DNA from: Aminobacterium mobile DSM 12262
GTDB taxonomy: Bacteria; Synergistota; Synergistia; Synergistales; Aminobacteriaceae
Direction of reading: 5' to 3'
Assembly: GCF_000526395.1 (NCBI RefSeq)
Contig: NZ_JAFZ01000001.1
Span: forward strand, 1,240,001-1,304,000
DNA length: 64,000 nucleotides
Shown piece by piece: positions 50,597-54,704 of this stretch. A program made the translations under genes and the position numbers. The notes under the pieces were generated by a model that did no database searches, was not told the DNA's origin, and was given only the letters and a program-made list of their open reading frames with translations. Position 1 is the stretch's first letter; each line of letters starts with the position of its first letter.

Positions 50597-51403
50597 TTAT
50601 TTCATATCTCGGGCTTGAATCCAAATTACAGCATCTTGGCTCAATTCTTTGCCATCATGTGTGTTTCTCGGACCTGCCCCAAGAGCAGCAAATCCCCACC
50701 AACCAGCTTTTGGGATGCCAAAGGTAAAACAGCCGTTCATATCTGCCTTTATAGCCATTGTGACAAAAGCGTCTTGCGGTGCTTCTACATGAGCTTTTTT
50801 AGCAAAACTGTTCTTATTTATAATAGGATCATGGTTTAGATATTCCACTTCTATTTCAGCAAAAGGAACTGTTTTCCCTTCTCGCTTCACAATTCCTCTG
50901 AATACATTTCCTGTCCAAAGGGCGTAAGGTTTATCAAGAGGGACTATTTCAGCAGGAAGCCCCATATCTCCATCCCAATCTGTAGGGATACCCGCTACAT
51001 TAACAAAAACTTTCGTCATTTGCTGAATGTAAAGTTCCTCTTGGGCTTCATAGTAAGGAGCAGGAATAAGGCAAAAAGCATAATCCCCCATCCCTTTAAG
51101 CTTGTATTGAAGCTCGTAGGCTTTTCCACTATTAGTAAGACTCGTCCACACAATGGGTTTAATATTCTTTAAAAGATCTATTTTTTGGCCTTTATGGACT
51201 ACATATAGCGATTCTGGTTGCCCCATATCCATAGTATGTCCAGCTTCAAAAGGGTGGGTAAAAACAAGTTTCATATCTATGATTTCCCCTTTTTCAAGGG
51301 CACTTTCTGGTGTATAGAACATTTGGAAATGGGCAGAAGCGGGAAAGGCAAAAAGACAAACCATGAGCCCTGTTAAAATAGCTTTCGTTGTTTTTTTTAT
51401 CAT
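50597..51403 (-). CDS. Exported DUF4198 protein, last gene of the feo operon
   Basis: 268 residues from ATG 51403, with AGGAGAGAATAGGA upstream; the frame opens earlier (51439) but the signal peptide starts here (IKKTTKAILTGLMVCLFAFPASAHF, cleavage near residue 24). The mature protein has beta-rich Ig-like DUF4198 character. The mature N-terminus begins with His after Ala, and YTPESALEKGEIIDMKLVFTHPFEAG is typical of the family. DUF4198 proteins are often found with metal transporters, notably nickel/cobalt (NikK-type). Here it follows feoB and a second exported protein, so a periplasmic metal-handling role is inferred. Confidence 0.75.
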   Translation of the reverse strand: MIKKTTKAILTGLMVCLFAFPASAHFQMFYTPESALEKGEIIDMKLVFTHPFEAGHTMDMGQPESLYVVHKGQKIDLLKNIKPIVWTSLTNSGKAYELQYKLKGMGDYAFCLIPAPYYEAQEELYIQQMTKVFVNVAGIPTDWDGDMGLPAEIVPLDKPYALWTGNVFRGIVKREGKTVPFAEIEVEYLNHDPIINKNSFAKKAHVEAPQDAFVTMAIKADMNGCFTFGIPKAGWWGFAALGAGPRNTHDGKELSQDAVIWIQARDMK

Positions 51404-51520
51404 AATTCCTATTCTCTCCTTAATAATATTTATTATCATCTATGCTCGACGCTCGACATTTTTAAATTATTTACGTTAAAATGTTACTTATGACATTTTG
51501 AAGGCTTCTTTGCTTTCTAT

Positions 51521-51548
51521 GAGGGAAGGGGGCCCCTCCCCTTTCCTC
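51521..51548 (-). repeat. GC-rich hairpin between the two exported feo-operon genes
   Basis: GAGGGAAGGGG (51521-51531) faces CCCCTTTCCTC (51538-51548) with one mismatch. ATGACA (51490-51495) and TGTCAT (51554-51559) extend it as an outer pair. There is no U run on the transcribed strand, so it looks like an mRNA-stabilising or processing hairpin rather than a terminator. Confidence 0.5.
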
Positions 51549-51558
51549 GAAATTGTCA

Positions 51559-51882
51559 TTAATCTTTTATATCTTCGCCTTTTATTTGAACTACATGTCC
51601 TGGACCTGCATCGAATACCACTATAAAAGGAACATCAGGTTTTTCGAAATTAAACTCACTTAGTTCGTCCATTTTCCCTTTTACAAGTACGTTGCCACCT
51701 TCATCTTTTACTGTCATAGACACACCCGAAGCAGAGGATCCATCAGAAAAGCCACCTTCGCAGGTAACGGTTCCATCGTCGTTCAGGTAGCAATAACACA
51801 TAGGAGTATGAGCAAAAGCTGCGCTGACAATTACACAAGAGAACAAAACTGCAAACAAACCAGCAAATATATTCCGCCTCAT
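51559..51882 (-). CDS. Small exported Cys-containing protein of the feo operon
   Basis: 107 residues with a signal peptide (FAGLFAVLFSCVIVSAAFAH, cleavage after about residue 24). The mature part starts HTPMCYCYLNDDGTVTCEGGFSDGSS, with three cysteines and a His in the first 20 residues, then a beta-rich domain. No named family is recognised. ATG 51882 overlaps the feoB stop as ATGA and has GGAGGTGA upstream, so it is translated with FeoB. A periplasmic iron or redox accessory role is inferred from position and Cys/His content. Confidence 0.75.
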   Translation of the reverse strand: MRRNIFAGLFAVLFSCVIVSAAFAHTPMCYCYLNDDGTVTCEGGFSDGSSASGVSMTVKDEGGNVLVKGKMDELSEFNFEKPDVPFIVVFDAGPGHVVQIKGEDIKD

Positions 51883-54407
51883 ATGTGATTCACCTCCTTC
51901 CCATCAAAAGAGTCCCCTTCAAAAAAATCTTCCTCTTCATGAAAAACAGGCCCTTTTACTTTTCCTAAGAGAAAAGCTACTAGTAAAGCAATCCCATAAA
52001 AAGCACCCATGGCCTGTTTTCCCGACATTCCTAACAAAGAGCCGCCAGTATAGATAATAGTTGCCAAAACAATACCCAGAGCTATGGGATATCCCAAGGC
52101 TATAAAAACCCAACGCCAACCACCAGCTTCCATTTTGACCATAAGAAGGGCTGCAATACATGGAGGATACATTGCCATAAAAACCATCAATGCCAAGGCG
52201 TGAAGAGGGGAAAAACCCTGCTCCTGTTCTTTCATTCTCTGCTCTAAGGTCTGCCCCTCTTCCCGAGGTTGATACAACACTCCAAGGGTCGCCACACTAC
52301 TCTCTTTGGCAGCTAGGGAGCTCAAAAGAGCCACGTTAACCTTCCAATTAAAACCTGCAAAACAGGTTATAGGCTCTAAAGCTTTCCCTGCCATTCCCAA
52401 AAAGCTCCCATGAAGTTGTTCGTCTCTCATTTCCATAAAAAGCATGGCCCTGTCTCTCTTCATCTGTTTAAAAGCCTTACTTAACGTTCGCCCATCCTTG
52501 CCCTTGGCATTTAAAAAGGGATAAATAGTGGGATACCGCTCTGAAAAACGTTTCTCAAACCTGTCTCTTCTCTCATCAGAGGAACTGACTAACGCTCTCT
52601 TTTCATTCTTATAGCGCTCTTCTATAGAAAGATAATGCGCTAAAGCGGTGTCAGAGCTAAGTTGCTCATAGAAAGATGTCCTCTGGATTCCATTTAAAAA
52701 AGTGTTCTTTATATCTTCTGATCTCCTCGTATAGTCATCCATCCTCGTTGCGCTAATAGAGGGGTAATTCGTAAGAAAATAGACTGCAATAGCAACAAGC
52801 ATTATAATAGTGAGAACTTTCTTTACAAAGAGCCATGTCCTTTCTACAGATCTCACCACAACCCCCCGAATGGTGGGAATATGGTATGGTGGCATCTCCA
52901 AGACAAATGGAGAACTTGGCCTATTTTTAAGTAACGTTAGAGTTAAAATTTTTGCCACAGAAAGAGCTATGATAATCGTAATGGTCGAGATAAAGAACAT
53001 GGCCGTAGCTTTTTCTTTTGCAAAATAAATACTTATGAGTAACGTATAAAGAGGAACTTTTGCCAAACAGTTCATAAGGGGCACTATAAGGATTGTGGCT
53101 AATCTTGCTTTCTCATCTGCGATAACACGAGTTGCCATTACACCCGGCACAGCACATCCACCAACAAAAACTCCACCCAGAATGAGAGGTAGCGTAGATT
53201 GGCCATGAAGCCCAAAACGCCTAAAAAGCTTGTCTAAAATAAAAGCCATTCTTGGCATATACCCTACATCTTCAAGAACTGCGATTAAAGCAAAAAGAAT
53301 TAAAAATATAGGGATATAAATAAGAACTGAATTAATGCTTGTAACAACACTTAAAACAAGAGAACGCAACAATGGTTCATGAATAAAGCTACCTATAGGT
53401 AAATATGATTCCACCGTATTTCTGAATTTTTCAAGAAGAGGGACCATGTAGTTAGTAAGTTCGTATCCTCTTACTATAGATAGCTCGTATAAGAAATAAA
53501 TAACACCTGCAAGAATAAGAGGCCCCCAGATCCTATGACAAACAAGGGCATCGATTTTATCTGTTAAAGTTACAGAGACCTCTTTTACCTTTACAACGCA
53601 GCTTTTCTCTATTTTCTCCGCTTCTATGTGACGCCTAAAGGCAATAAAGCCGCGAGGCGAATCATTGTGGTCTTTTTCGAATTCAATAGCAGCATTTTTA
53701 ACAAAAGAAAGTATCTCTTTTGCACCAGAACATTCTTTTGTTACGATACGATTAGCTATTTCATCTTCTTCAAAAAGCTTGATCGCTACCCAACGGGAAG
53801 GAAGTTCCTTTCCTACCATAGACTTCTCTATCATTAAGGAAACATTAGAAATATAGGGTTCAAGAACCCCATAATCTACCTTAAAGAGTTCTTTCTTCCT
53901 ATCGCTGTTATGTAAGCTCTCGACAAGTCCATTCTTTAAATCGTTCTTTCCCTTTCCTTTATTACCTACTGTAGAAACAACTGGAAGCCCGAGAGCATGA
54001 GACAGAGCCTTAGCATCTATGCGTAGTCCTCTCTTGTCTGCTACATCTAGCATATTGAGGACTATAAAAAGAGGAGCCCCTATTTCCAATAACTGGAACG
54101 TCAAATAAAGATGACGTTTCAAGTTTGATGCATCCACCACATCTACCACAAGAGACGGATTTTGTTCTAAAATAAAGTCTCTTGCGATCCTTTCTTCCTC
54201 TGAATATGATGAAAGGCTGTACGTTCCAGGCAAGTCTGTAAGAGTTATTTTTTCATCTTTCCACATAAAGGTACTTGTTTTAATTGAAACTGTTGCTCCA
54301 GGATAATTAGCCACAAACTGGCGGCCACCCGTAAGCATATTAAAAATAGTTGACTTTCCACAATTAGGCTGGCCTGTTAAAGCTATACGATGGATTTCCG
54401 ATCTCAT
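51879..54407 (-). CDS. feoB: Ferrous iron transporter FeoB with an extra soluble insertion
   Basis: 842 residues, longer than many FeoB proteins. The N-terminal G domain has GQPNCGKSTIFN, TDLPGTYSLSS and NMLD. The membrane part includes the Gate motifs GGCAVPGVMATR and LAAKESSVATLGVLY and the MYPPCIAAL helix. A charged, helix-rich segment of about 120 residues (547-669, bases 52401-52769) separates two membrane segments in the second half. FeoB imports Fe2+ under anoxic conditions. It overlaps feoA and the next exported gene by four bases each. Confidence 0.93.
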   Translation of the reverse strand: MRSEIHRIALTGQPNCGKSTIFNMLTGGRQFVANYPGATVSIKTSTFMWKDEKITLTDLPGTYSLSSYSEEERIARDFILEQNPSLVVDVVDASNLKRHLYLTFQLLEIGAPLFIVLNMLDVADKRGLRIDAKALSHALGLPVVSTVGNKGKGKNDLKNGLVESLHNSDRKKELFKVDYGVLEPYISNVSLMIEKSMVGKELPSRWVAIKLFEEDEIANRIVTKECSGAKEILSFVKNAAIEFEKDHNDSPRGFIAFRRHIEAEKIEKSCVVKVKEVSVTLTDKIDALVCHRIWGPLILAGVIYFLYELSIVRGYELTNYMVPLLEKFRNTVESYLPIGSFIHEPLLRSLVLSVVTSINSVLIYIPIFLILFALIAVLEDVGYMPRMAFILDKLFRRFGLHGQSTLPLILGGVFVGGCAVPGVMATRVIADEKARLATILIVPLMNCLAKVPLYTLLISIYFAKEKATAMFFISTITIIIALSVAKILTLTLLKNRPSSPFVLEMPPYHIPTIRGVVVRSVERTWLFVKKVLTIIMLVAIAVYFLTNYPSISATRMDDYTRRSEDIKNTFLNGIQRTSFYEQLSSDTALAHYLSIEERYKNEKRALVSSSDERRDRFEKRFSERYPTIYPFLNAKGKDGRTLSKAFKQMKRDRAMLFMEMRDEQLHGSFLGMAGKALEPITCFAGFNWKVNVALLSSLAAKESSVATLGVLYQPREEGQTLEQRMKEQEQGFSPLHALALMVFMAMYPPCIAALLMVKMEAGGWRWVFIALGYPIALGIVLATIIYTGGSLLGMSGKQAMGAFYGIALLVAFLLGKVKGPVFHEEEDFFEGDSFDGKEVNHI

Positions 54408-54631
54408 AGCTTCTCAACCTCTACAAAACTAGCTTCTTCATGGCGAATGCTCACATGATGCCTTTCTAACTGAACATCCACTGGGTCCACAAAGGGAGCA
54501 TTGCGAATCACGTGAACTTCAACTCCAGGGAAAAATCCTAGATCCATGAGCCGCTGCCCAACAACACCTCGAGCCCTGTTTTTTTTAATGACGCACTTCT
54601 CTCCCGGCTTTATTGCATCAAGCGTAATCAT
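54404..54631 (-). CDS. feoA: Ferrous iron transport accessory FeoA
   Basis: 75 residues, an SH3-like fold with GEKCVIKKNRARGVVGQRLMDLGFFPGVEVHVIRNAPF typical of FeoA. It binds and modulates FeoB. It is the first gene of the operon, and its stop overlaps the feoB start by four bases. A consensus promoter lies about 43 bases upstream of its ATG. Confidence 0.92.
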   Translation of the reverse strand: MITLDAIKPGEKCVIKKNRARGVVGQRLMDLGFFPGVEVHVIRNAPFVDPVDVQLERHHVSIRHEEASFVEVEKL

Positions 54632-54673
54632 GACACCAATCCTTCTTGAAAGTTTTATTTATCAAACAAGAAG

Positions 54674-54702
54674 ATTATACGACTGAATGTTTGATGTGTC
54701 AA
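54674..54702 (-). promoter_or_regulatory. Perfect-consensus sigma-70 promoter of the feo operon
   Basis: On the minus strand TTGACA (54702-54697) and TATAAT (54679-54674) are separated by exactly 17 bases. Transcription would begin near 54667, giving a leader of about 36 bases. A promoter this strong normally needs a repressor, which fits the palindrome lying across its -35. Confidence 0.8.
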
Positions 54703-54704
54703 AC
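54689..54704. promoter_or_regulatory. Palindromic operator candidate over the feo -35 element
   Basis: GTTTGA (54689-54694), four bases, then TCAAAC (54699-54704): a perfect inverted repeat covering the -35 hexamer. A further half site ATCAAAC is at 54661-54667, at the predicted start point. It does not resemble the classical Fur or DtxR consensus as I know them. Confidence 0.55.

Follow-up and report, generated by a model that had tools for sequence, protein, structure and literature searches.

A conserved variant of the Feo system whose exported subunits are related to accessory proteins of nickel importers

The question raised by this locus of Aminobacterium mobile DSM 12262 is why the genes feoA and feoB are followed by two genes for exported proteins. 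The window, which is the whole stretch of 64,000 nucleotides analysed here (contig NZ_JAFZ01000001.1, positions 1,240,001 to 1,304,000), corresponds to G000:C1:1240001-1304000, where G000 is the genome of this strain. On its minus strand the open reading frames run in the order feoA, feoB, L' and K', the last two being our names for a small exported NikL-related protein and for an exported DUF4198 protein related to NikK. The set is a conserved, widespread variant of the Feo system, and its exported subunits are kin of the accessory proteins of nickel energy-coupling factor (ECF) importers.

The adjacent genes feoA (54631-54404, minus strand, 75 amino acids) and feoB (54407-51879, minus strand, 842 amino acids) carried FeoA and FeoB domains above the curated cut-offs, with matches to FeoA PF04023 (expect value, E, 2.4e-18) for the former and to FeoB_N PF02421 (E 2.4e-60) and TIGR00437 (473 bits, cut-off 316) for the latter, a FeoB of a long type. 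They were followed by the L' gene (51882-51559, minus strand, 107 amino acids), which matched the NikL model NF058648 below its cut-off, and the K' gene (51439-50597, minus strand), listed with 280 amino acids and matching DUF4198 PF10670 (E 8.3e-56). An earlier note on this DNA had described the four genes as consecutive, the first three as overlapping by four bases and the small protein as having Cys and His near its mature N-terminus. Coordinates and domain matches agree with this order, the feoA/feoB and feoB/L' junctions each overlap by 4 bases and the predicted mature N-terminus of L' reads AHTPMCYCYLN. The start of K' lies 119 bases downstream of L', with no terminator-like match listed in the gap, although an internal ATG at 51403 (MIKKTTK...) is the likelier start and would give a protein of 268 amino acids. 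Judged from the sequence, each of the two exported proteins opens with a segment resembling a signal peptide that closes in Ala-His, and cleavage between these two residues is predicted.

The four-gene arrangement exceeds chance because it recurs in other families and phyla. Matches to L' at E <= 0.001 were present in 34 of 185 Synergistota genomes, and in all 22 genomes having a short L' it adjoined FeoB and K', across five families (f1, f3, f4, f5, f6), with a split FeoB and an altered gene order in G014. The remaining 12 genomes had weaker L' matches only; eight of these were fetched (all but G015, G017, G109 and G180) and all eight matches adjoined nikM. The same 22 genomes had K' (E <= 2e-72), as did G037 at a contig end, while G023 had a broken FeoB of the long type with neither partner within 10 kb. 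In several Synergistota (L037-L038, L042, L046-L050, L053-L055) K' was followed by an additional exported protein that was weakly NikK-like or matched DUF4198, for example L049:5881-6699 (PF10670 E 7.1e-32).

Outside this phylum, a bait search was run with an alignment of L' alone (A1), FeoB being unused, and the best 80 of 298 relatives were analysed. These came from Desulfobacterota-type bacteria, Alpha- and Gammaproteobacteria (among them Pseudovibrio, Cohaesibacter, Photobacterium, Vibrio sonorensis and Thiocapsa), Treponema, Thermodesulfovibrionales, Omnitrophota, SAR324 and four Synergistota. With FeoB scored as a match extending past residue 600, it lay within 4.5 kb of L' in 73 of the 80 loci, and in 67 K' was also present within 1.5 kb. 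Three layouts were seen among these 67, with feoB upstream on the same strand (45), divergent (16) or downstream (6). Six loci had FeoB without nearby K': three (L059, L087, L129) stop shortly past L', two (L120, L128) have a more distant K' and one (L126) has no K' within 12 kb. Five had K' without a scored FeoB, including two with FeoB pieces at contig ends (L065, L095), one ending just past K' (L125) and two without FeoB (L093, L099). The last two loci had neither, L058 ending soon after L' with feoA directly upstream and L111 carrying L' alone. The earlier note had taken homologues lying consistently away from feoB as a sign against its proposal; contrary to this, L' and K' sit beside feoB in several phyla. 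Two Magnetospira loci (L094, L119) carried the set, and a link to magnetosomes was dropped because the feoAB1 operon of Magnetospirillum gryphiswaldense, given as about 2.4-2.5 kb in the excerpts available of PMC8547445 and PMC7908775, is too short for four such genes; the passages available of PMC3251581 held no gene list for it.

Co-occurrence was scored in 247 genomes from the phylum of Desulfosarcina widdelii (G185). L' matches fell into those with E <= 1.7e-17 (19 genomes) and those with E >= 2.9e-13, and 21 genomes had FeoB at 600 bits or more, followed by a match at 525.6 bits. All 19 genomes with L' were among the 21 with the long FeoB, and in 18 of them the two genes lay within 2.7 kb on one contig, G371 having them on different contigs. 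Of the two long-FeoB genomes without L', one was G216, whose contig stops within FeoB, and the other was G215, which has feoA-feoB-K'. Among 29 genomes reached from bait loci, 27 had a single FeoB match that ran from residue 8 to residue 810 or beyond, and in G188 and G200 the long match was in two pieces; G204 had a second match reaching residue 797, and all other listed matches in the 29 genomes ended by residue 583.

The sole NCBIfam match of L' was the NikL model (E 8.4e-14, 51.9 bits, positions 2-90 of 180), short of the curated cut-off of 100 bits. This model was matched by 58 of 58 L' homologues in alignment A2 (E <= 0.01), and no other transporter family appeared among the NCBIfam matches of these homologues. 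Rows with more than about 90% likeness were first removed, as were four duplicates from Synergistota (L055, L056, L060, L069) that are counted among the 80 bait loci; of the 90 L' and 77 K rows then retained, 58 entered A2 and 49 entered the FeoB-type part of alignment A3. By homology L' is thus assigned as a shortened relative of NikL rather than an orphan, and therefore the exported pair is a NikL/NikK pair. Candidate metal ligands in L' are His25 (predicted mature residue 1), Glu42, Asp47 and His96, together with Cys29, Cys31 and Cys41. His25, Asp36, Glu42, Asp47 and His96 were invariant in the 58 rows, and the cysteines were conserved in 50 (Cys29), 57 (Cys31) and 57 (Cys41) of them. Five NikL rows likewise had the N-terminal His, Glu42 and the last His of GxGH, four of them having Asp47 as well, while the C-terminal membrane anchor of NikL was missing in L'. 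The L' of Treponema lecithinolyticum (L120:2007-2585), which is outside A2, adjoins FeoB, has kept a C-terminal membrane segment and has Gln/Asn at positions 42/47. It belongs to an enlarged set (L120:31-6300) of FeoB, this C-terminally anchored L', two K' and a second short L'.

Structures were predicted with AlphaFold2 from alignments A4 and A5, which exclude loci from the genome profile searches. The L' model (predicted local distance difference test, pLDDT, 93.5) had seven strands, and among the structural matches listed for it the MG1 domain of E. coli alpha-2-macroglobulin ranked first (Z 12.9). A Foldseek search with the model returned nothing at E <= 0.001, and the modelled fold can be claimed as a beta-sandwich only. 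A profile of L' matched CopC weakly (E 0.002, profile positions 3-70); CopC was not among the 50 structural matches listed for the model, however, and no copper gene was recognised beside the set.

K' was well above the gathering cut-off of DUF4198 (189.9 vs 34 bits). Its model (pLDDT 93.6) matched Zcp (9mhl_A; Z 18.9, root-mean-square deviation 3.8, 214 aligned) and the Ni-bound DUF4198 protein of Ideonella sakaiensis, IsDUF4198 (9gcb_A; Z 16.7, root-mean-square deviation 3.2, 184 aligned), both far above the next family (Z 6.7), although identity to K' was only 16-18%. These proteins and K' have an N-terminal His in common, and in the structural alignment His37 of K' is paired with residue 1 of 9gcb, at which the alignment starts. 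The Ni2+ ligands of 9gcb have been described as the N-terminal His1 and His18, with a dissociation constant (Kd) of 18 nM, and its reported neighbours are TonB and NikR genes, not feo (PMC12537917, in part). For Zcp, binding of Zn, Co and Cu is given in the entry titles, and no paper on it was found in the literature search. Candidate ligands in K' are His37, which would be residue 1 of the mature protein, and His62. Both were present in 54 of 54 rows of A3 (49 FeoB-type and 5 NikM-type), in which Met70, Asp119, Glu164 and Glu197 were also invariant. In an unrooted tree of 46 rows, the six nikK rows formed one side of a branch with support of at least 100/99.

Among the nearest known systems are the NikKMLQO nickel/cobalt ECF importer and Feo itself. 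With the former the set has in common the N-terminal His and GxGH of L' and NikL and the His37 and His62 of K' and NikK, but FeoB occupies the place of NikM, and L' lacks the C-terminal anchor and has a CxC motif and a third Cys. Beside the FeoB-L'-K' sets of the loci fetched there was no match to nikM. In this genome nikK-nikM-nikL form a cluster elsewhere, at L002:1459-3457 (G000:C1, about 59.7-61.7 kb), which is the nickel/cobalt counterpart of the K'/L' pair, its NikK matching DUF4198, its NikM matching CbiM and its NikL scoring above the cut-off (165.3 bits). With the Feo system the set has in common the FeoA and FeoB domains, the 4-base operon overlap and a 16-bp upstream box, described below, that recurs at a second feo operon, and it differs in the two added NikL/NikK-type genes, an insert of about 110 residues in FeoB and an extra C-terminal helix. 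The names nikK and nikL and periplasmic nickel-binding roles were proposed earlier (PMC545781), and for orphan NikK/NikL genes the neighbourhoods revealed no function (PMC2667541). A description of FeoB with NikL/NikK-type partners was not found in the open-licence literature searched, which was seen mostly as titles and abstract beginnings.

In the alignment, the long type of the window FeoB is defined by the insert at about residues 549-661 and an additional C-terminal hydrophobic segment at about residues 799-817. The linked set comprised 80 open reading frames of at least 650 amino acids, of which 75 were distinct. They came from 79 loci and include a second FeoB of L070 that is not a true member. 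The 549-661 stretch held 107-185 residues (median 111) in the 75 distinct linked FeoBs, as opposed to 0-56 in 17 unlinked Synergistota FeoBs, and the C-terminal segment was filled in 73 of 75 rows as opposed to 3 of 17. The two linked rows without it were the second FeoB of L070 and a split Treponema FeoB. The insert probably lies in the periplasm, because it follows a helix (526-544) that is itself preceded by a basic segment. As an exclusive mark of linkage to L' and K' the insert was rejected, since unlinked FeoBs also carry it. FeoB divided into GTPase and membrane parts, or broken into two frames, was seen beside L' and K' in L062, L170, L051 and L076.

The evidence on the metal came from upstream of feoA. 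A promoter-like site TTGACA-17-TATAAT (54674..54702, minus strand) has 12 of 12 consensus bases, which is a consensus match only, and a 16-bp box occurs twice around it: box 1, GTTTGACACATCAAAC (54689..54704, minus strand), overlies the -35 and box 2, GTTTGATAAATAAAAC (54652..54667, minus strand), comes directly after the -10, each at the same position in G030 and G031. The box search covered these two congeneric genomes and G000, and the pattern was derived from the boxes of the window and G031, so that how often they occur in the window cannot serve to test it independently. The box was also found just upstream of a second feoA-feoB2, with one mismatch in G000 and G031 and two in G030. This second operon has the layout DtxR-feoA-feoA-feoB2, and in G000 the gene preceding the box encodes an iron-dependent (DtxR-type) repressor with a FeoA domain. 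Only three sites in G000 had at most one mismatch, all at the two feo promoters, while at up to two mismatches the pattern barely exceeded its backward control (15 vs 10 in G000, 13 vs 15 in G030, 16 vs 15 in G031). No box match was listed near nikK-nikM-nikL. Directly ahead of feoA in G031, and on its strand, lie genes for a DUF2023 protein (E 1e-39) and a flavodoxin (E 1.4e-27) (L036:5833-6735). Iron is a probable substrate of the system, and we hold this with good confidence because the box is common to the DtxR-bearing second feo operon and a flavodoxin gene precedes feoA in G031. DtxR-type repressors are able to sense Mn as well, which leaves Mn compatible with the box taken by itself.

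Flavodoxin-like genes, recognised from sequence alone, lay near feoA in further relatives (L043-L045, L052). Just ahead of feoA in L037, L038 and L040 was a small open reading frame whose product has a hydrophobic N-terminus and a tail rich in Cys; we take it to resemble FeoB-associated Cys-rich proteins. The box also preceded an AhpC-type, peroxiredoxin-like gene in G031 (L179:1501-2295, one mismatch) and a similar one in G000 (L185:1443-2291, two mismatches), perhaps as part of a wider iron regulon. DUF4198, connected by the earlier note with nickel/cobalt importers, has been linked in the literature with Fur-regulated operons as well as with nickel. In Caulobacter, iron limitation and fur mutation each raised the expression of two DUF4198 genes strongly (PMC3751524). 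The iron link is repeated in PMC11870441, and an association with PepSY-type clusters is given in PMC8238504.

A functional partnership of L' and K' with FeoB is close to certain in our judgement, given their linkage and co-occurrence. That they are chance neighbours or hitch-hikers with no common function would account for the rare lone L' copies (L111, L041, L162, L163) but is extremely improbable with the same partners in three layouts and a co-occurrence of 19 of 19. In the reading we prefer, L' and K' would be exported and then cut in a way that leaves histidine as the first residue, and each would bind a divalent metal, most likely Fe2+, through this His and conserved downstream ligands. 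They would then hand the ion to FeoB, perhaps docked on the periplasmic insert or the extra helix, and FeoB would carry Fe2+ across the inner membrane. The iron handling proposed by the earlier note is partly supported, by the recurrence of both genes beside feoB and by the promoter box and the neighbouring genes, which point to iron; we infer the Fe2+ role itself, the contact with FeoB and the direction of transfer. Taken whole, long-type Feo uptake with L' and K' capturing Fe2+ and passing it to FeoB is reasonably likely. An explanation that keeps iron without a direct relay has L' and K' as soluble periplasmic buffers or scavengers that boost the local supply and do not dock on FeoB. The missing NikL anchor of L' would suit it, as would L' copies that stand alone or, in L164, near a TonB receptor and other exported proteins, but we regard it as unlikely when the partners track one FeoB type and not FeoB generally and the linkage persists through three layouts. 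A little less probable again is a repurposed FeoB that imports another divalent metal (Ni, Co, Mn or Zn) with its NikL/NikK-type partners. The kinship itself, the binding of Ni2+ by 9gcb (Kd 18 nM) and the metals named for Zcp speak for it; the box held in common with a second feo operon carrying an iron-dependent-repressor gene, the flavodoxin upstream in G031, the lack of a listed box near the nik cluster and the presence of nikK-nikM-nikL in the genome already speak against it.

Several observations weigh against Fe2+ delivery by L' and K' to a long-type FeoB. The closest kin of the two proteins serve nickel, IsDUF4198 showed a preference for Ni2+ when Ni, Zn, Co and Cu were compared at 1:1, a list without iron (PMC12537917), and the boxes were found in one genus only, none being noticed among the other feo-set promoters inspected, with a dedicated search in three genomes. 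The L' of G014, which is outside A2, has no cysteines. L' was not beside FeoB in L111, L093 and L099, all three genomes holding a long FeoB elsewhere; a second L' was distant from FeoB in G033 (L041) and 3 of the 19 co-occurrence genomes held an extra L' away from FeoB (L162-L164), while G215 had feoA-feoB-K' without L'. Nor are the FeoB features confined to linked genes. The insert was present in the second FeoB of L070 (114 residues) and, with 99-113 residues, in five of seven unlinked FeoBs fetched from genomes of the Desulfosarcina phylum (L157-L160 and L165, not L166 and L167), and the extra helix in the three unlinked Synergistota FeoBs counted above. These five insert-bearing FeoBs have 788-797 amino acids and seem to be without the extra helix, because their match to the window FeoB stops at residue 781-796. 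In the L164 region (L164:3159-7824, in G228) the neighbours of L' are exported proteins resembling DUF4198, a TonB receptor (PF00593) and a gene similar to flavodoxin, and L' may here serve iron uptake in a second way.

FeoB is a main Fe2+ importer of anaerobes, and to our knowledge no dedicated periplasmic donor for it has been established. A conserved, co-occurring exported pair makes Fe2+ delivery to FeoB and selection by it directly testable, and organisms with the set include Desulfosarcina widdelii, Photobacterium marinum and Pseudovibrio. For annotation, L' homologues may carry the names of nickel proteins, because 58 of 58 match the NikL model, and some of the orphan NikK/NikL genes of PMC2667541 may belong to FeoB-L'/K' sets. 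We suggest tentatively, with slightly less than even confidence, that a second widespread form of FeoB is the motor of a multi-subunit importer in which NikL/NikK-type subunits dock on the insert and select and deliver Fe2+. If true, one capture module would have been fitted to two unrelated motors, an ECF motor of the ATP-binding cassette type for nickel and a GTPase-linked one for iron.

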